Source of the DNA: Candidatus Poribacteria bacterium
GTDB lineage: Bacteria > Poribacteria > WGA-4E > WGA-3G
Assembly (NCBI GenBank): GCA_022827225.1
Contig: JAJDTJ010000044.1
Coordinates: forward strand, 62,001-126,000
Direction: 5' to 3'
DNA: 64,000 nt
Shown piece after piece: positions 3,642-14,015 of this stretch (its first letter is position 1; each line of letters starts with the position of its first letter). The notes under the pieces are model-generated. The model was not told the origin of the DNA. It did no database searches and saw nothing but the letters and a program-made list of their open reading frames with translations. The position numbers and the translations under genes were made by a program.

Positions 3642-5276
3642 ATGAGAGACTATTACCCGATGTATCCAACAGAATCTGAGCTTTTTGTAGAGGAAGAGGA
3701 GACGGACGAGGTCCCCGCAGAATCTCCGAAGGACGAGACCTTCGCGTACCTACAAAAGATCGCTAAAACACCTTTGCTGGACCCTGAACAGGAGACGGCT
3801 TTGTTTAAAAAATATCAAGCCGGCCTCCAACTGTTCACTTCTTTATTGAATCAATTCCCAGATTGGATATTTGTCTCGCTTGACATACCCGCAAATACGG
3901 CTCCAGACACGAGATACAAATATGAACCGCCGCAATCAGAACACGGGTCAATTGTCCCTAAAATTCGCGCGGAAATCCAAGCCCTCGGTGTGTTGTTGGA
4001 AAAATTAGAGGCAAAAGCAAAATTGTTTGAGCAAGCCCGCTGGAAGATTTTTCAAGGCAACGCGCACCTGATTAAAAAATATGTTAACGAAACCTCGCCC
4101 CCCGAATTAATGCAAGCCGGGAGCCTCGCACTCTTTGATGCTATTGACAACGACAACGCAAAACGTGGCGCGGAATTCCGAGCTTATGCCCGTAAAACAA
4201 TTCGGCGGCGCATCAGCGCTGCTAACGAAAAAATAACGGAACCCGGACAACACGGTAAAACTACATTCCTTGAGATAGCACCGTTCCTTGACTTTGAGCG
4301 TACCACACCGGCACCATTTGACGAAGAACAGGAAACCCTCGCTTTCCAGGAATTCGATGTCATTCGCCGAGAGATTGAAACGCTTTTCGCAGAGTTGCCA
4401 CCAGCAATGTTATCCGATAGGACCGCAACGCAGTCGCCACGCGCACTGCGCTTCGTTCTTGAGGATATACAAAATGAATTCGCGCACATCAAGTGGTTAG
4501 TCGAACAACTCGAAGAAGCTGACCAGATTACACACGGGACGAAATTGAAAATCGTCGAAGCCAATCTACGCCTCGTCGCAAGCATCGCTAAGCAACATCA
4601 TTTCAGCAAAACATCCTTAACTTTCCTCGATTTGATGCAGGAAGGGAGCCTCGGGTTGATGCGGGCTGTCGATAAATTCGACCATACACTCAAATTCCGG
4701 TTCAGCACCTATGCAACATGGTGGATTATGCAATCCATCAAACGCGCACTCGACCAACAGGGACAGATGATCCGAGTACCCTGCTACATCGGCGAAGCAC
4801 GACGCGCCATCAAGCAGGCACAATCCGACCTCACATCCGAACTCGGACGCGAACCGACGACTACCGAAATCGCAAACGCTGTTGAACTTACTGAGAAAAA
4901 GGTCTCCGAAATCTTCAACGCAACAAGGGACCCTGTACCTCTCGACGCACCGATTAACGAAGATTCACCCGACGGTTCGTTTTCCGAACTCATCCCAGAC
5001 CAATCTCAGATTACACCGGAGAACTACCTGCTGGATTACGCAAAAATTGAGATCATCTCTGAGACACTCAACCGGACGCTTAATCCTCGTGAAGCACAAG
5101 TAATCATCCTCCGATATGGGCTCATTGACGGCACCGAATACACTTTAGCCGACATCGGAAACAAACTCAAAATCAGCCGAGAACGCGTGCGACAGATAGA
5201 GGTCGAAGCCATTGAAAAACTTAAGAAAAGCGACGAATCGAAAGACCTACTTCAGGAGTTACTTCAAGAATCTTAA
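3642..5276 (+). CDS. RNA polymerase sigma-70 family factor with an extra region-2-like segment
   Basis: A 544-residue primary/group-2-type sigma factor. Region 1.2 is at about 30-60 (T-F-A-Y-L...P-L-L-D-P-E-Q-E). Full region 2 is at about 303-380, with the core-binding [10 protein letters not shown] and the -10 recognition segment F-S-T-Y-A-T-W-W-I. Region 3 is at about 380-440. Region 4 with its helix-turn-helix is at about 480-530 (S-R-E-R-V-R-Q-I-E). Between regions 1.2 and 2, residues about 130-195 look like a second, degenerate region 2: [13 protein letters not shown] followed by [13 protein letters not shown]. It would direct core polymerase to -10/-35 promoters. ATG preceded by GAGGTGAGG. 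It lies 58 bp upstream of larC. Confidence 0.93.
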
Positions 5277-5334: not shown

Positions 5335-6648
5335 TTGAAGATCGCGTATTTCGACTGCTTTTCTGGTATCAGTGGCGATATGACGCTCGGTGCCTTAGTT
5401 GATACAGGGGTGCCACCAGAGATACTCACAGACGGATTGGCAACCCTCAAACTCGATGCCGAATTTAGCCTGCGCTTTGAAAAGGCAGTCAAACACACTA
5501 TTACCGGCACCCGAGCGGTTGTGGATGTGCATCCGGCGCACACCGATCCCCATCAAGAAAAAGCGCATTCACACGGGCATACGCATTCCGATACACACGA
5601 TCATTCGCCCCATCATCACGAGCACCATCATCACGAGCATGGACCGAGTCGCCACCTCTCCGATATTTTCAAACTGCTCGACGATAGCGATCTGGATACA
5701 GTCGTCCGGGATACCGCGAAACGTGTCTTTGATCGACTCGCTGAGGCGGAGGCGAAGGTACACAATACATCAAAAGACAAAGTTCATCTCCACGAAGTCA
5801 GCGGCATCGATTCTATTGTGGATATCGTCGGTTCAGTCATCGGGCTCGCATATCTCGAAGTAGACGCTGTTTATGCGTCCCCACTCTCTCTCGGTACCGG
5901 TTTTGTCCGCTGCGCACACGGTGTCATGCCTGTTCCCGTCCCGGGAACAATGGAACTCCTACAAGGTGTCCCAATCCACCAAACCGACATCCCGAAGGAA
6001 TTAGTCACACCGACCGGTGCCGCGCTCATTACGACACTATCGCAGGGGTTCGGGGTCATGCCACAGATGCGACTCGATCGTATCGGGTACGGTGCCGGCA
6101 CCCGCGACCTCGAACAACGTCCGAACCTCCTCCGGCTCTGTCTCGGCGAAAAAACATCAGACACCGATTTAAAGACAACGCACCACCACACCGAAACTGA
6201 CAGTGTGGACATTATTGAAACCAACGTAGACGATATGTCGCCGGAGATTACCGGCTACGTTACGACCCAACTCTTTGAACACGGCGCACTCGACGTGTTC
6301 CTCGCACCCGTTTACATGAAAAAGGGCAGACCCGCAACGCAGATCACCGTCCTCTGCCCTACACCCCAGCGCGACAGACTCATCGAACTCCTCCTCACCG
6401 AAACCACAACCTTTGGCGTGAGGCTCTCTTCCGCTGATCGGATCAAACTCCGCCGCGATTTTGTCCAAGTCGAGACGCAGTGGGGCACGATCCAAGCCAA
6501 GCGCGGATACCTCAACGGCACGCTTATCAAGACTGTCCCTGAATACGAGGATTGCAAACGGCTTGCCGAACAAAACAACATCCCGCTTCGACAGGTCTAC
6601 GCCGAAGCACTCCGCAACCTCAGTTCTACTGATACAGTAGATCAATAG
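5335..6648 (+). CDS. larC: LarC, nickel-pincer cofactor (CTP-dependent) nickel insertase
   Basis: 437 residues starting I-A-Y-F-D-C-F-S-G-I-S-G-D-M, the hallmark N-terminus of LarC (formerly DUF111). LarC inserts nickel into the pyridinium-dithiocarboxylate mononucleotide cofactor used by LarA-type racemases. A His-rich metal-binding stretch lies at about 66-105, inside the N-terminal domain, and the C-terminal domain has the E-T-N-V-D-D-M-S-P-E motif near 290. It is one continuous frame, unlike the lactobacillar larC1/larC2 arrangement. The start is TTG with GGAG 10 bases upstream, and the motif begins at the second residue. larB and larE are not in the window, but a LarA-like gene lies at 24838-26091. 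Confidence 0.93.
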   Translation: MKIAYFDCFSGISGDMTLGALVDTGVPPEILTDGLATLKLDAEFSLRFEKAVKHTITGTRAVVDVHPAHTDPHQEKAHSHGHTHSDTHDHSPHHHEHHHHEHGPSRHLSDIFKLLDDSDLDTVVRDTAKRVFDRLAEAEAKVHNTSKDKVHLHEVSGIDSIVDIVGSVIGLAYLEVDAVYASPLSLGTGFVRCAHGVMPVPVPGTMELLQGVPIHQTDIPKELVTPTGAALITTLSQGFGVMPQMRLDRIGYGAGTRDLEQRPNLLRLCLGEKTSDTDLKTTHHHTETDSVDIIETNVDDMSPEITGYVTTQLFEHGALDVFLAPVYMKKGRPATQITVLCPTPQRDRLIELLLTETTTFGVRLSSADRIKLRRDFVQVETQWGTIQAKRGYLNGTLIKTVPEYEDCKRLAEQNNIPLRQVYAEALRNLSSTDTVDQ

Positions 6649-6765: not shown

Positions 6766-8358
6766 ATGAACACTTTAAACAACAAAATCAGGCTTAATCT
6801 TGACGGTGACGTGAAAGTGTCTGTCAAAGGTTCCATTGCTCCGATTGAGCACACGCTCTCTAATTTCCATGTAGAGTGGGAGGCATTGGCGAATTTACGC
6901 GTCACTGAACCCGAGAAGCAGCATCCCGCATCTGTTTTCCAATCTTTTCTTCCCACGAAACCGATTTCAGTGGGTGAATGCTGGCAGATCCAGGAATCTG
7001 GCGTGCTGGCGTTGCTCAGGCAATTACACACTGCCCTAAATCTGAATATGGACGTTGATTCGGAGAATTCGGACCGACCATGGGCATGTCTCCGCGCCTA
7101 CAACGATAGATTCGCCGACATCGTGTTTCGGGTTCACGCGGCGTTTAAATTAGAAGATGGCTGGCTTACGCCTTCGCAGTTTGCCGGAAATCTTGTCATC
7201 AATCGACTTGACGGAAAGATTGCTTTCTTTGAAATGTCCGTCCCTGCAGGCACGGTGAATCTCGATATCGGTTGGAAAGAAGACAAAGAGGCATCTTATT
7301 CTATTACAGATGCAGGTTTTTGCTCACAAATGCAACTCCATGCTGGGGCGCGAGATGTTGTGCAAAACATAGATTTTTCAACATCTATCACCCAAGAAGC
7401 AGCAGAACGCACGTTAGCAGGACGTTTCTACAAATCAGAACAAATTAACTGGGTATCCCCATATCAAGCAGTCGAGATGGCAGAAGAACAAGAAAAATTA
7501 ATTCATGCCATCTCAATAGACGGACCCTTAGCTGATGAATCCTGCTGAGGGAGCGGCAAAGGCTTGAGGGCAGGTGTCCTCTCTGATGACCGAGTTATCG
7601 AATTCTTGAATGAAAACTTCATTAACGTTTGGGTGTCCAATGTCGAATTGGAGCGGACACCCCGAAAGCAAGCCTACATGGCACGAAGACGTAAGGATCT
7701 ACCCAAAGCGTTCAACAGAACATATCCTCTCGCAAAAGCCGTCATGGAAGGGTGGAAAGAACATTCACCGGTGGATTGTTTAGTTATTGCCCCAGAATTT
7801 GATGTGATGGGCAAACTTCCGCTTAATGACTTCTTTGATGACTGTTTGCAAACTGGTATCTCAGAAGAGGATGCTTACCTTAAGTTTCTTGAGGATTCTT
7901 TAGATGGCAAACTTCCCGGATTTGCCGATGACACTTCGGACGCGCCCGTAAGCGGTTTGAAGGTTGTGCTTAACCCTGAGCAGACTGAACAAGAAGTACT
8001 GGACATCCTTCGGACACCGAGATACGGCTATCAAGACTATACTGTCGTTGAGATTGATGCTACAGCCTTTGAAGAGGGTGGAATACTCACCATTAATATT
8101 CAGATGGGTACTGCGAAGCCGGGGGGATCGTTTGATCTCTTTGATGACGATACCGAATTGCCGACAAAAGGAATTCCTGATGAGGCACTCACCTCAGCGT
8201 GGGATATTCCCTCCGGACAGATCGGAAGAATCCGACATCGTTTTGATGAAGGCAAACTCTTTAAACTGGGTGCTACCGGTACATGGTTCAATGAGAAAGG
8301 GAGCATCAACGCCTTTCAAGCAACGGTTTCTGTAGAACCAGCACAAAAGAAACTTTGA
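6766..8358 (+). CDS. Thioredoxin-like Cys-Sec selenoprotein, tandem copy 1 (in-frame TGA at 7546-7548)
   Basis: Predicted 530-residue selenoprotein with Sec261 directly after Cys260 (D-E-S-C-U-G-S-G-K). Domains: an unrecognised N-terminal domain (about 1-215, with conserved W-A-C-L-R-A-Y-N-D and G-F-C motifs); a thioredoxin-like domain (about 227-385) with I-N-W, a strand ending at Cys-Sec, a helix, F-L-N-E-N-F-I, then S-P-V-D-C where the cis-Pro strand is expected; and a beta-rich C-terminal domain (about 395-525). Upstream and downstream frames match exactly. The Met at 6766 is chosen over a TTG at 6703 because paralogues begin there and GGATGG precedes it. No signal peptide is seen, so it is probably cytoplasmic. 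It ends TGA-TAA. A stop here would cut the thioredoxin fold in half. Confidence 0.85.
7566..7581 (+). promoter_or_regulatory. Putative bacterial SECIS hairpin, copy 1
   Basis: GAGGGC-AGGT-GTCCTC: a six-pair stem (one G-U pair) with an AGGU apical loop starting 24 nt after the A of the TGA. This distance and the GGU in the loop fit SelB-binding SECIS elements such as that of E. coli fdhF, which lie inside the coding region just after UGA. Confidence 0.72.
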
Positions 8359-8433
8359 TAACCGATAGAAGTGCATCCAATTTTGTGTATAGGTGATAAT
8401 ATCCTATACTGAAAAGGAAGTTCATAACGAAAA

Positions 8434-9999
8434 ATGCAAACTTTCAACAACAAAATCGCACTTAATCTTGACCGTGATGCACAAGTGTCTGTCACAGGTT
8501 TCATCGCCCCGATTGAATACACCCAACGCGACTATCACGTCGATTGGGACGAATTGGCGAACCTAAAGGCTGCTGAACCGGAGAAGCAATATCCTGCTTC
8601 CGTCTTTCAAGCGTTTTTGCCACAGGAACCGGTTTCGGTGGGTGAATGTTGGCAGATTCAAGAAGAAGCTGCATTAACATTGCTGAGGCAACTCAGTCCA
8701 TGTCCACAATTGGAATTAGAAATTGGGGGGGCGGATTCTTACGGTTTGTGGGCATGTCTACGCGCCTACAACGATGCGTTTGCTGAGATGCTGTTCCGTA
8801 TCCATGCGGAATTCGTTTTAGAAAAAGGTTGGTTTGCGCCATCACAGTTTGCCGGATATATGATTATTGATCGGGTCGAAAAGAGAGTTGCCGCCTTCAA
8901 GATGCACGTTCCAGAAGCCACACTGAACTTTGATGTACGCTGGAGGATATTTGGAGATAAGCGCCGCGCCGCGGGCATCGGTTTTTGCCCGCAAATGGAA
9001 CTCTGTACTGGGGCACAAGATGTCTTGCAAGATGCTAAATTCACAGAAGCCATCACCAAAGCGGAAGCATTGCATACACTGATGTTGCGTTTTTACAAGG
9101 CGGCGCAAATTAACTGGGTATCGCTGGAAGAAGCCTTGAAGATGGCACCCGCACAACAGAAACCGGTTCATGCCGTCTCAATAAATGGACCACTCTTGGA
9201 CGAATCCTGCTGAGGGAGTGGCAAAACCCTGAGAGCAGGTGCTCTCTCTGATGATCAAAACATTGAATTCTTGAACGATAATTTCATCAATACTTGGGTG
9301 GGCAATGCTGAATTAGGACGTAGCCCTGGTTTGCGGGAACCGATTGCCAAAAGACGCGAACGTGAAGGTAAGACGTTTGACACAACGCACCCCTTGGCAC
9401 AAGCGATTATCAAGGGATGGAAGACCGGATCAAAAAAAGGGTCGCCGGTGGATTGTTTCGTCATATCACCTGATTTTGAACTGATGGGCAGACTGCTTGT
9501 CAATGAATTCTTCGACGACAATTGGAATAAATTTAAACGCCGAGACGAGGAGAGTTACCTTATATTTCTTAAGGAAGCTTTAGACGGAAAACAGCCCGGG
9601 TTGGGGAATATCATTCTGACCAGCGAGGTGTCTTCTCAAGATGTTTTTGATGTTTTCCGTACACCAATAGTTGGTTACCAAGATTACACCGTAGTTATCA
9701 TTGATACAAGAGCGTTTGAGAACGGCGGCACGCTAACCGTTGATATTGAGACCGGTAGAGCCGATGCGGAAGGGTGCTTCTATTTGGTTGATGGTGACGA
9801 TGACCTCCCTTCAGCAGAAAGAGTGACTAAACACATGGTACTTGCTATGAAGTGGCTCGAACCCGATGAGACAGGACAACTCACGTATCGTTTTGACCGA
9901 GGTCAGTTTTTTAAGTTGGGTGCTACCGGAGTGCACAGTCGGAGTGAGAAAGGCAGCATCAATGCTTTTAAGGCAAAAATTTCTGTAGAGGAGCATTAA
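8434..9999 (+). CDS. Thioredoxin-like Cys-Sec selenoprotein, tandem copy 2 (in-frame TGA at 9211-9213)
   Basis: Predicted 521 residues with Sec260 following Cys259 in the same D-E-S-C-U-G-S-G-K context as the other copies. It has the same three-part plan: N-terminal domain of unknown family, thioredoxin-like domain split by the TGA (I-N-W-V-S-L-E-E-A-L before it, F-L-N-D-N-F-I-N-T-W-V after it, then S-P-V-D-C-F-V-I), and a beta-rich C-terminal domain with G-Y-Q-D-Y-T-V-V and F-K-L-G-A-T-G. The region after the Sec codon shares the Arg/Lys-rich R-E-P-I-A-K-R-R-E-R-E-G segment with copies 3 and 4. The ATG is preceded by AAAAGGAAG at some distance. It begins 75 bp after copy 1 and ends one base before copy 3, so copies 2-4 are likely cotranscribed and coupled. 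Confidence 0.87.
9231..9246 (+). promoter_or_regulatory. Putative bacterial SECIS hairpin, copy 2
   Basis: GAGAGC-AGGT-GCTCTC: a perfect six-pair stem with the same AGGU loop and the same 24-nt distance from the TGA as copy 1. Relative to copy 1 the fourth pair changes from G-C to A-U and the fifth from G-U to G-C, so pairing is preserved by changes on both sides. Confidence 0.77.
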
Positions 10000-10000
10000 A

Positions 10001-12034
10001 ATGAAATCAACATCAAACCAAATCACACTCAACCTTAACGATGACGTAGAAGTGTCCGTTAAAGGCTTCATCGCCCCGATTGAATACACACAATACGACT
10101 TTCATGTAAAATGGGATGCCTTGGCAAATCTGCGCGTTGCTGAACCAGAGAAACAGCATCCCGCCTCAATCTTCTGCGATTTCCTCCCTAAGGAAGCCGT
10201 TTCTATTGGCATCCCTTGGGAGATAAAACACGTTGGGGTTTTGAGATTGCTGGAGCAACTTCATCCGAGTCCATCGCTTAATATGCGTGTGGATGCGCGC
10301 AGTAGCATGAAGGAATCTCAGGGATTGTGGGCATGCCTGCGCGCGTACAATGATGAATACGCTGATATTGTGTTCCGTATCCATACTGAATTTGCTTTAA
10401 AAGGCGGTTGGTTCACGCCTTCTCAGTTCACTGGACACCTCATCATTGACCGAATCAGAGAAAGTGTTGTCTTTTTTGAAATGTACGTTCCTAAAACCAC
10501 TCTGAATTTTGATGTTAACTGGAAAGGTCCAGAGGCGTCTAAGGTCGAGACATGGATTACGGACATCGGCTTTTGTCCGCAAATGGAACTTCGTGCCGGA
10601 ATAGAAGATGTGATGCCAGATATCGAATTCGCAGAATCCATTACACAAAAAGAGGTAGAGCACAAATTGATTCTCTACTTCTATAAATCACAGCGCATTA
10701 ACTGGGTATCGCTTGAAGAAGCGTTGGAAATAGCTCCTGCACAACAGAAACCCATTCACGCGCTTTCAATAGACGGACCGCTCGCGGATGAATCCTGCTG
10801 AGGGAGCGGAAAAAGTCTGAGGGCAGGTGTCCTCTCCGGAGACGAAATTATTGAATTTTTGAACGAAAATTTCATCAATACATGGGTTCCCAATTCAGAA
10901 TTAGGGCGTATTCAGAGTTTGAGGGAACCAATTGCGAAAAGACGTGAACGCGAAGGTAAGACGTTTGACACAAGCAACCCGTTGGTACAAGCGATGATTA
11001 AAGGTGAGAAAACCGGATCCAAAAAAGGTTCACCAGTAGATTGTTTTGTTATATCCCCCGATTTTGAACTGATGGGTAGGCAAATGGTCAATGAACTTCG
11101 GGAAGACTGTGAGCGTAGAGGTCTTTCAAGGCGCGAGTATTATCTCACATTTCTCAAGGAAGCCTTGGAAGGAAAAGAACCTGGATTGGGGAACATTGTT
11201 CTTACCCGTGAGCATCCTTGGCAAGCGGTGTCGGACCTTTTCCGCACACCAAAGGCAGGCCACCAGGATTGGACGGTTGTCACAATTGATACCACCGCAT
11301 TTGAAAAAGGCGGCACGCTAACCATTGACATTGAAATTGGTAGGGAAGAAGGGGAAGCGGCGTTCTATCTGTTTGATGACGATACGGAACTCTCCACAAC
11401 AGAAGGTGCCCCAAAAGATATGCTGACTTGGGTATGGGGTGAACCCGACGACACGCGTCAAATTACACATCGTTTTGACCGGGGGCAACTTTTTAAGTTA
11501 GGTGTCACAGGAGCTTGGGTGAAAGAGGAACCGTGTATTAACGCTTTCCGCACAAAAATTTCTGTGACGGAGAATGAAAAAGAACCTTTAGAAGAGAAAC
11601 GTCCTGAATCGAACGAGGACATCCCGAACGTTCCACTCAGTGCGTTGAATGTTTTACTTGACAGCGGACAGTCCTCGCGGGAGATATTAAACGTTTTTCG
11701 GGCACCTGGAGAAGGTTATCAGGATTACACTGTCGTCAATATTGATGCTACGGCATTTGAAGGCGGTGGAACGTTAATTATTGATGTTCATGTCGGGAGT
11801 GCTGATATTTCCGGCTCGTTTGATCTTTTTGGTGGCGACACCGAACTGCCGACAGAAGGTTATCCCAATGCCGCACTCACCTCCATGTGGGGAGTTAGAC
11901 CTAATCAAGCAGGACAAATCAGACATCTTTTCGCGCGAGGCAAAGTCTTCAAGTTTGGTGCAACAGGCGACTGGTACGGCGAGAAGGGACGGACAAACGC
12001 CTTTCGCGCAAGAATCTCTGTAGAGGCGCATTAA
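10001..12034 (+). CDS. Thioredoxin-like Cys-Sec selenoprotein with duplicated C-terminal domain, tandem copy 3 (in-frame TGA at 10799-10801)
   Basis: Predicted 677 residues, Sec267 after Cys266. It has the same N-terminal and thioredoxin-like domains as its neighbours, but two copies of the beta-rich C-terminal domain in tandem. The first is encoded around 11185-11570 (H-Q-D-W-T-V-V ... F-K-L-G-V-T-G) and the second around 11632-12031 (Y-Q-D-Y-T-V-V ... F-K-F-G-A-T-G), joined by an acidic, Glu/Pro-rich linker. This accounts for the extra 140-150 residues over copies 1, 2 and 4. The second copy most resembles the C-terminal domain of copy 1 (shared G-S-F-D-L-F and S-A-L/G-L-x-V-x-L), so it may have come from unequal exchange within the array. 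The ATG lies one base after the stop of copy 2, with GTAGAGGAG just upstream. Confidence 0.87.
10819..10834 (+). promoter_or_regulatory. Putative bacterial SECIS hairpin, copy 3
   Basis: GAGGGC-AGGT-GTCCTC, identical to copy 1 in stem and loop and again starting its loop 24 nt after the TGA, although the bases between TGA and hairpin differ. Confidence 0.72.
11632..12031 (+). repeat. Duplicated C-terminal beta domain inside selenoprotein copy 3
   Basis: The segment repeats, at protein level, the domain encoded just upstream (about 11185-11570) and at the ends of copies 1, 2 and 4: a Y-Q-D-Y-T-V-V strand, F-E-x-G-G-T-L, F-D-L-F, Q-I-R-H-x-F-x-R-G, F-K-F-G-A-T-G, then N-A-F-R-A-R-I-S-V. Boundaries are approximate. 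Confidence 0.7.
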
Positions 12035-12035
12035 A

Positions 12036-13643
12036 ATGAAATCAATATCAAACAAAATCACGCTTAATCTTAACGATGACGTAGAAGTGTCTGTCAAAGG
12101 TGTCATCGCCCCGTTTGAATACACACAATCCAACTTCCACGAGACATGGGACGAATTGGTGAACATTCGGGCCGCTGAACCTGAAAAACAGTATCCTACA
12201 TCCGTTTTTCAAGCGTTTCTCCCATCGGAACCGGTTTCGGTGGGTGACTGCTGGCAGATTCAAGAAGAAGCCGCGTTAACATTGCTGCGGCAACTCTCTC
12301 CGCATCCACAACTGGAGTTGCATATTAATTCAGGAGATCCGCAACGTGCTATGTGGGCATGCCTCCGGGCTTACAATGCCGAATGCGCCGAGATTCTGTT
12401 CCGTATCCACGGGCAATTCGTCATGAATCGCGGTTGGTTGACACCTTCACAATTTGCTGGACATCTATTTATTGACCGGCTCCAAGAGAAGGTTACCGCC
12501 TTCACGCTGCACGTCCCTCAAACAACACTGAACTTCGATATCGGTTGGACACAAGAGGACGGGAGCACTTATGCCGATATCGGCTATTGTCCGCAGGTGG
12601 AGCTCTCTGCTGGCACGCTACCGCACGATGTCGAATTTGCAAGGTCAATCACGCAAGAAGAAGCCGAACGTGCACTCATATCGTGTTTCTACAAGGTTCA
12701 GGAAATCAACTGGGTATCGTTGGAAGAAGCGTTGGAGATGGCACCCGCGCAGCAGAAACCGATCCATGTCATCTCCGTAGATGGCCCGCTCTTCGACGAA
12801 TCCTGCTGAGGGACTGGCAAATGCCTGAGGGCAGGTGAGCTCTCTGAAGACCGAATCATCGCATTCTTGAACGAAAACTTCATCAATACCTGGGTAACCA
12901 ATGCAGAATTAGGACGGAGCCCCAGTTTACGAGAACCGATCGCGAGGCGACGTGAACGCGAAGGTAAAACGTTTGACACAACGCATCCCTTAGCACAGGC
13001 AATTATGAAAAGTTGGAAAAAAGGTTCACCCGTGGACTGTTTGGTTATCTCGCATGAATTTGAACCGCTCGGTGGCATAGACTACAACGAGTTTCCCGAC
13101 TGTTTAGGCGAGTTTGAGGACGAGGTAGGGGCTTATCTGTTTTTTCTCAAGGCATCTTTGGAACGTGAACGCCCCGGATTGGGCACCCTTATTCTTACGC
13201 CTGAACAACCTTCACAGGAGGTAGTAGATACCTTTCGTACCCCGGAGATAGCGCATCAGGACTACACCGTTGTCTACATTGATGCCACGGCGTTTGAAGA
13301 TGGCGGCACGTTCACTGCCAACATCCAAGTCGGTAGAGACAGCGGAATAGGCATCTTCCATCTACTTGATGGAGATAAAAAACTGCCGACGGAGGAAGTA
13401 CCTGATGGGATTGATCCTGAAACATGGAACAGTCAGAGAAGCGACGAATACAGGAAGGCACTTGACGCACTGACCAGAGTCTGGGGAATATTCCCTGATG
13501 AAACTGGGCAAATTACGTATCAGTTTGATCGTGGTCAACGCTTTAAGTTATGTGCGACTGGGGATCAATGGGGCGGGATCGGCGACATAAACGCTTTTCA
13601 CGCGAAAATTTCTGTGGAAGCAGCAGAAAAGAACGAAAATTAG
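12036..13643 (+). CDS. Thioredoxin-like Cys-Sec selenoprotein, tandem copy 4 (in-frame TGA at 12807-12809)
   Basis: Predicted 535 residues, Sec258 after Cys257, same three-domain plan. It starts one base after the stop of copy 3. The thioredoxin-like half after the Sec codon keeps F-L-N-E-N-F-I-N-T-W-V, the basic R-E-P-I-A-R-R-R-E-R-E-G segment and S-P-V-D-C-L-V-I. The C-terminal domain carries a 20-25 residue insertion (around P-E-T-W-N-S-Q-R-S-D-E) before the Q-I-T-Y-Q-F-D-R-G strand. Its putative SECIS stem is the weakest of the four, but the TGA, the preceding TGC and the downstream protein sequence are conserved, so recoding remains the simplest reading. It ends in TAG, 15 bp before a WD40 fragment gene. 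Confidence 0.83.
12827..12842 (+). promoter_or_regulatory. Putative bacterial SECIS hairpin, copy 4 (imperfect)
   Basis: GAGGGC-AGGT-GAGCTC: the outer three pairs and the loop-closing C-G pair are kept but the fourth and fifth positions mismatch. Loop and 24-nt spacing are as in the other copies. An alternative five-pair stem, GCCTG with CAGGT around loop AGGG, is possible just upstream. Confidence 0.5.
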
Positions 13644-13658
13644 TGTGGAGAATTTCCG

Positions 13659-14015
13659 ATGAAAACAACACTTCTCTTCCTATTGATACTACTGATAATA
13701 TCGAGTGGCATCCCACGAATCGGTGCTGCTGAATACGAAGCAGGCACACAAATCGCGCTTCCAGAAGGTGCTTTAGCCCGCCTCGGTAAAGGCAATGCGA
13801 AAATGGCGACGTTTTCTCCAGATGGCGGTCTCCTTGCTGTAGCGGGATCAATCGGTGTCTGGCTTTACGATGTTCAGAGTTACAAAGAGGTGTCTCTGTT
13901 CACTGGACACACTAAACATGTTGCATGTGTAGCATTCAGTCCTGACGGGAAAATCCTCGCAAGTGGTAGCACCGATGGTACTATTCTTTTATTTTCTTCA
14001 GTTTGGAAAGAGTAA
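13659..14015 (+). CDS. Short secreted WD40-repeat protein, probably truncated
   Basis: 118 residues: a signal peptide (about 1-24, basic start then a Leu/Ile-rich core ending G-A-A), then a segment A-L-P-E-G-A-L-A-R-L-G-K-G, one degenerate and one good WD40 unit (F-S-P-D-G-K-I-L-A-S-G-S-x-D-G-T-I). The N-terminal part closely parallels the 685-residue WD40-dockerin protein at 43741-45798 (W-N-L-P-D-G-A-I-A-R-L-G-K-G). One or two blades cannot close a propeller, so it is likely a truncated paralogue, or it needs partners. Start supported by GGAG upstream. It follows the selenoprotein array by 15 bp and may share its transcript. Confidence 0.7.
   Translation: MKTTLLFLLILLIISSGIPRIGAAEYEAGTQIALPEGALARLGKGNAKMATFSPDGGLLAVAGSIGVWLYDVQSYKEVSLFTGHTKHVACVAFSPDGKILASGSTDGTILLFSSVWKE

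Follow-up and report, generated by a model that had tools for sequence, protein, structure and literature searches.

The 64,000-nucleotide stretch of Candidatus Poribacteria DNA analysed here (the window; contig JAJDTJ010000044.1, positions 62,001 to 126,000) carries, at positions 6766-13643 of the plus strand, four tandem two-part genes that are very probably homologous to the redox core of the animal protein selenoprotein N (SELENON), with an in-frame TGA likely read as selenocysteine (Sec) through the cell's own SelA, SelB, SelC and SelD, and with products predicted to be selenol-disulfide oxidoreductases. Each unit contains one such TGA, straight after Asp-Glu-Ser-Cys (DESC), and DESC-TGA-G(S/T)GK is found in all four, the continuation being G(S/T)GKxLRAG. 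An earlier sequence-only reading had described four adjacent units with first parts ending in DESC and TGA, and these are present; the frame that it saw continuing as Gly-Ser-Gly-Lys does continue in all four units, but the second residue is Ser or Thr.

Once the TGA is read through, units 1 to 4 become single frames of 530 (starting at the ATG at 6766), 521, 677 and 535 amino acids, and each of units 2, 3 and 4 has 54% identity to unit 1. Unit 1 (6766-8358, in-frame TGA at 7546-7548) consists of the N-domain, the Cys-Sec thioredoxin domain and one beta-domain; no signal peptide is seen on reading it, and it terminates at an ordinary TGA stop. It is followed on the same strand by unit 2 (8434-9999, TGA at 9211-9213), unit 3 with two C-terminal beta-domains (10001-12034, TGA at 10799-10801), and unit 4 (12036-13643, TGA at 12807-12809, predicted Sec258). 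The four units are probably one operon, because the gaps between them are 75, 1, and 1 bases and letters resembling a ribosome site (GAGGAG/GAGGCG, by reading) precede units 3 and 4.

The placement of Sec at the TGA, already proposed by the sequence-only reading, is strongly supported at the level of sequence; it is favoured by the sel genes, a hairpin that follows the model of the selenocysteine insertion sequence (SECIS), the conservation of the TGA, and purifying selection on its two sides. The genome (5.62 Mb, 89.4% complete) carries all four genes that had been suggested for a check, namely selA, selB, selC (anticodon UCA, directly behind selB), and selD. SelD (L142, on contig C84 of this genome, G000) is a predicted selenoprotein itself, with the TGA in selD at GUASK. 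In the phylum set of 84 genomes, selB is above the cut-off in 59 of the 64 genomes with family matches. In comparisons between the units, the nonsynonymous rate (dN) is 0.24-0.32 and the synonymous rate (dS) 0.86-1.88, with one pair saturated, for the part before the TGA, and the values for the 120 codons past it are 0.18-0.38 and 1.22-1.65, respectively. As dN/dS is low both before and after the TGA, purifying selection acts on both flanks.

In respect to relatives, 175 of the 176 distinct copies from fetched loci have TGA at the site and one has TCA (a further 14 hits did not reach it), in a sample that is biased towards TGA by the profile and patterns, made from TGA copies, with which the loci were fetched. 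Among the matches listed in the phylum search, each of the 150 contains one TGA. With Sec (U) placed at the TGA, the active-site motif of the 175 copies would be SCUG (98), SCUA (36), ACUG (35), GCUG (4), or ACUA (2), and SCUG in all four units of the window.

A predicted bacterial SECIS (bSECIS) hairpin lies behind each TGA: GAGGGC-AGGU-GUCCUC in units 1 (7566-7581) and 3 (10819-10834), GAGAGC-AGGU-GCUCUC in unit 2 (9231-9246), where one stem pair is changed on both sides relative to units 1 and 3 (G-C to A-U), and, by direct reading, GAGGGC-AGGUGA-GCUCUC in unit 4 (12827-12844), for which the scan script picked an alternative stem of equal length with the loop AGGG. All are on the plus strand, and their spacing, loop, and stem agree with the bSECIS model as printed in section 5 of PMC13188914. 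With a stem of at least 6 bp, the model fits 151 of 151 distinct downstream 48-mers of related loci; in the controls it fits 342 of 3000 random 48-mers of the window and 116 of its 1014 plus-strand TGAs. The stem covaries. It also has more pairing than when synonymous codons are shuffled within columns: 188 of 210 cells are paired versus a mean of 182.0 (standard deviation 1.3), and none of the 2000 shuffles is as high. The fixed register pairs 89.5% of the cells, and 79.5% when slid by +2. SelB would recognise the hairpin after each TGA.

The SELENON-like part fits no Pfam, NCBIfam, or PDB sequence family (the NCBIfam scan of 10 members gave no significant match, best E 0.09). A protein-database search with a SELENON query returned records named Selenoprotein N, and the identity to coelacanth and lamprey SELENON is 29-30% over 298-370 columns. 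The profile-profile alignment in hhalign (probability 100, E 4.7e-53, 317 columns, about 30% identity) spans the N-terminal domain and the thioredoxin-like domain. In the reverse direction, a profile of nine vertebrate SELENON sequences finds 20 matches in this genome (E 1.5e-25 to 2.1e-10), all within family loci, and each of the ten thioredoxin-part matches holds one TGA. The plan of these proteins, taken at first for an undescribed one, is thus that of the core of animal SELENON. In the alignment of 41 bacterial and 8 vertebrate rows (human numbering), 42 columns have one common residue in at least 90% of the bacterial and at least 85% of the vertebrate rows, including R291, H293, G315, and C461, and the Arg seven residues past the Sec-site Cys is present in 41 of 41 and 7 of 8 rows, respectively. 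Judged by the flanking residues, the TGA stands where SELENON has its Sec, described in PMC12839072 and PMC8967691 as Sec462 within an SCUG motif.

The bacterial proteins share with SELENON the N-terminal domain, with its FRIHxxF, QFxG, and Asn-x-Asp motifs, and the SCUG-type Cys-Sec pair. They differ in the absence of the EF-hand: the alignment opens at column 158 of the 554 in the SELENON profile, past the EF-hand loop, and no EF-hand is among the Pfam hits of four proteins scanned at E ≤ 5 with the HMMER filters on. By reading, the window's four also have no membrane anchor, the N-domain standing at the very start with no hydrophobic segment before it. Furthermore, the bacterial SECIS lies inside the coding region, one or two C-terminal beta-domains (beta-sandwich) are often added, and there are many paralogues per genome. 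In terms of sequence the family is a bacterial branch that lacks the EF-hand and is homologous to the core of SELENON, not SELENON itself, because the homology and the Cys-Sec centre are found but there is no EF-hand and, in units 1 to 4, no membrane anchor either. The adjacent Cys-Sec is shared with the catalogued CU-motif prokaryotic selenoproteins SaoC, SaoL, MbdU, HgcA, and KCU-star (PMC13188914 Table 1), which are different families, set apart by their listed names and domain identifiers; that catalogue, which dates from 2026 and lists 119 families of prokaryotic selenoproteins, has no SELENON-like entry.

Several observations weigh against the reading of these genes as SELENON-like selenoproteins. 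In the fixed register, 11 of 35 representatives miss the pair of columns 24 and 33 and 8 of 35 that of columns 26 and 31, largely because a subgroup with the loop GGGU pairs in a register displaced two bases further on, and, folded one at a time, the four units do not stand out clearly from their shuffled versions (z -1.62 to 0.14). Five of the 64 family-positive genomes, all at most 83% complete, are without selB over the cut-off, and 16 of the 20 family-negative genomes have it, so that the presence of selB alone does not discriminate. A minority of copies carry Gly (14), Trp (2), Thr (1), or Ser (1) at the Sec site, and Cys is found in only one copy seen; the Cys-aligned homologues that the sequence-only reading had proposed to look for are therefore represented by a single protein (P0122), most sense copies having Gly. 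Copies with Gly, Trp, Thr, or Ser have probably lost the redox centre secondarily; the adjoining Cys is gone as well in P0041 (Gly) and P0048 (Trp), and P0121 is a further Gly copy. Trp453 of the human protein is matched by Trp in just 9 of 41 bacterial rows, and Arg466, a reported human variant site, by Lys in 170 of 175 copies. The inspected animal SELENON records skip or misread the Sec codon, with a small gap there, and the alignment of the TGA with Sec462 consequently rests on the flanking residues and the published SCUG/Sec462. Finally, with the EF-hand and membrane anchor absent, the calcium role of SELENON cannot be transferred.

P0122 itself joins an extracytoplasmic function (ECF) sigma factor to a domain resembling SELENON, in which Cys-Cys replaces Cys-Sec.

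The structure model of unit 4 shows the N-domain at about 1-215, a thioredoxin fold at 219-378 (with Cys257 and the predicted Sec258), in line with the thioredoxin-like domain expected from the sequence, and a beta-sandwich at about 382-530. The nearest solved folds among the matches listed are DsbH, AGR2/AGR3, and ERp19 (TXNDC12); the thioredoxin fold is common to them and the model, but they have CxxC or CxxS motifs and not adjacent Cys-Sec, and are not known to carry the SELENON N-domain. The motif, the fold, and a redoxin fusion among the paralogues make it rather probable that the proteins are selenol-disulfide oxidoreductases working like the SCUG centre of SELENON. After insertion of Sec at the TGA by SelA/SelB/SelC/SelD, Cys and Sec, direct neighbours immediately ahead of a thioredoxin-domain helix, would form a selenenylsulfide and cycle with the reduced pair. 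A thioredoxin-type partner may recharge the pair, as suggested by paralogues fused to an AhpC/TSA-type redoxin domain, and choosing the substrate would fall to the beta-domain at the N-terminus and the beta-sandwich at the C-terminus. Units 1 to 4, like other copies that have no signal peptide, would work in the cytoplasm, and paralogues with signal-peptide-like or lipobox-like starts outside the inner membrane. The redoxin fusion (L027 by Pfam; L044 and L047 by reading) would also suit selenol peroxidases that detoxify peroxides and are not protein-disulfide reductases, and PMC12839072 describes SELENON as a redox regulator countering oxidative damage; set against the nearest solved folds named above, a list that excludes no others, this function appears unlikely, though it deserves consideration.

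In the tree, the vertebrates (SH-aLRT 100) stand apart from two bacterial clades (99 each), which are mutually 33-35% identical versus 30% to vertebrates. Tentatively, and with some doubt, we propose that the Cys-Sec thioredoxin and N-terminal beta-domain of SELENON are a bacterial module expanded in Poribacteria, which eukaryotes would have obtained from bacteria, adding the EF-hand and membrane anchor later; the protein would then not have been a calcium sensor at its origin. Acquisition of SELENON by Poribacteria from sponge hosts is improbable. These bacteria are described as sponge symbionts in a title among the references of PMC5649159, and every named record among the 120 listed for the SELENON query is from a vertebrate, but the bacterial clades diverge from each other about as far as from vertebrates, the SECIS is of bacterial type and within the coding frame, the bacterial proteins have no EF-hand, and algae also have a reported SELENON (PMC7539508). 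The tree cannot decide on such a transfer, as it is unrooted (midpoint for drawing only) and all its animals are vertebrates.

That the TGA is a true stop, the halves being separate genes initiated downstream, is how standard gene calling splits these genes, and 118 of 120 protein-database hits among the matches listed end in DESC, i.e. at the TGA. This is nevertheless very improbable: in units 2-4 the first ATG/GTG/TTG beyond the TGA is a TTG 19 codons downstream, and 12 of these 19 codons give an identical residue in all four units; 16 joined sense proteins among the 120 listed (13 Gly, 2 Trp, 1 Thr; P0057 is incomplete at its start) carry both halves in one frame; and SELENON is the joined protein. 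That an altered genetic code or a suppressor tRNA places Gly, Trp, or Cys at the TGA, in keeping with the Gly, Trp, Thr, Ser, or Cys at the site in sense homologues, can hardly be credited in a genome with complete Sec machinery, with a SECIS-like hairpin after the TGA, and with TGA serving as an ordinary stop in the window, a use that the sequence-only reading had noted, for 6 of the 38 other open reading frames of at least 250 amino acids (four Sec sites excluded), including the end of unit 1 and a MacB-like gene whose two domains are both complete.

SELENON, whose chemistry is still unclear, is mutated in a human muscle disease. A soluble bacterial form without EF-hand or membrane anchor would make the chemistry of the SCUG centre and N-terminal domain testable and the structure solvable. 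The human variants p.Arg291Gln (PMC8967691) and c.943G>A, in the codon of position 315 (reported in PMC12839072), fall at positions where all 41 bacterial rows and all 8 vertebrate rows agree. The prokaryotic selenoproteome gains a large multi-copy family, one that bears on the origin of an animal selenoprotein.

Family matches occur in 64 of the 84 genomes searched, with up to 18 per genome, and none in families of the phylum other than f1, f2, and f3. The ten TGA-bearing copies of this genome are the four in the array, three on contig C72, and one each on C36, C81, and C107. Paralogues have zero, one, or two beta-domains, some begin with a hydrophobic, signal-peptide-like or lipobox-like segment, and one form is the AhpC/TSA-type redoxin fusion with a sub-threshold TPR-like linker. 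In the redoxin-fused L027 (C36), L044, and L047 the first Cys of CxxC is replaced by His or Asn (W-H/N-S-F-C), and a C-terminal part of about the same length is present in L041, L043, L045, L046, L048, and L050. L029 (C107) is interrupted in its N-domain by another in-frame TGA (QFTG-TGA-LL), probably a nonsense mutation, and the 48 nucleotides downstream of it fold weakly (-5.1 kcal/mol). L031 (C72) is a lone family beta-domain ending what reads like an ECF sigma-factor protein.

Upstream of the array, the window encodes a nickel insertion protein (Pfam Ni_insertion, 5335-6648) and a sigma-70 factor (3642-5276). Directly after unit 4, at 13659-14015, lies a short WD40 protein of 118 amino acids with a signal-peptide-like start, perhaps a truncated copy.
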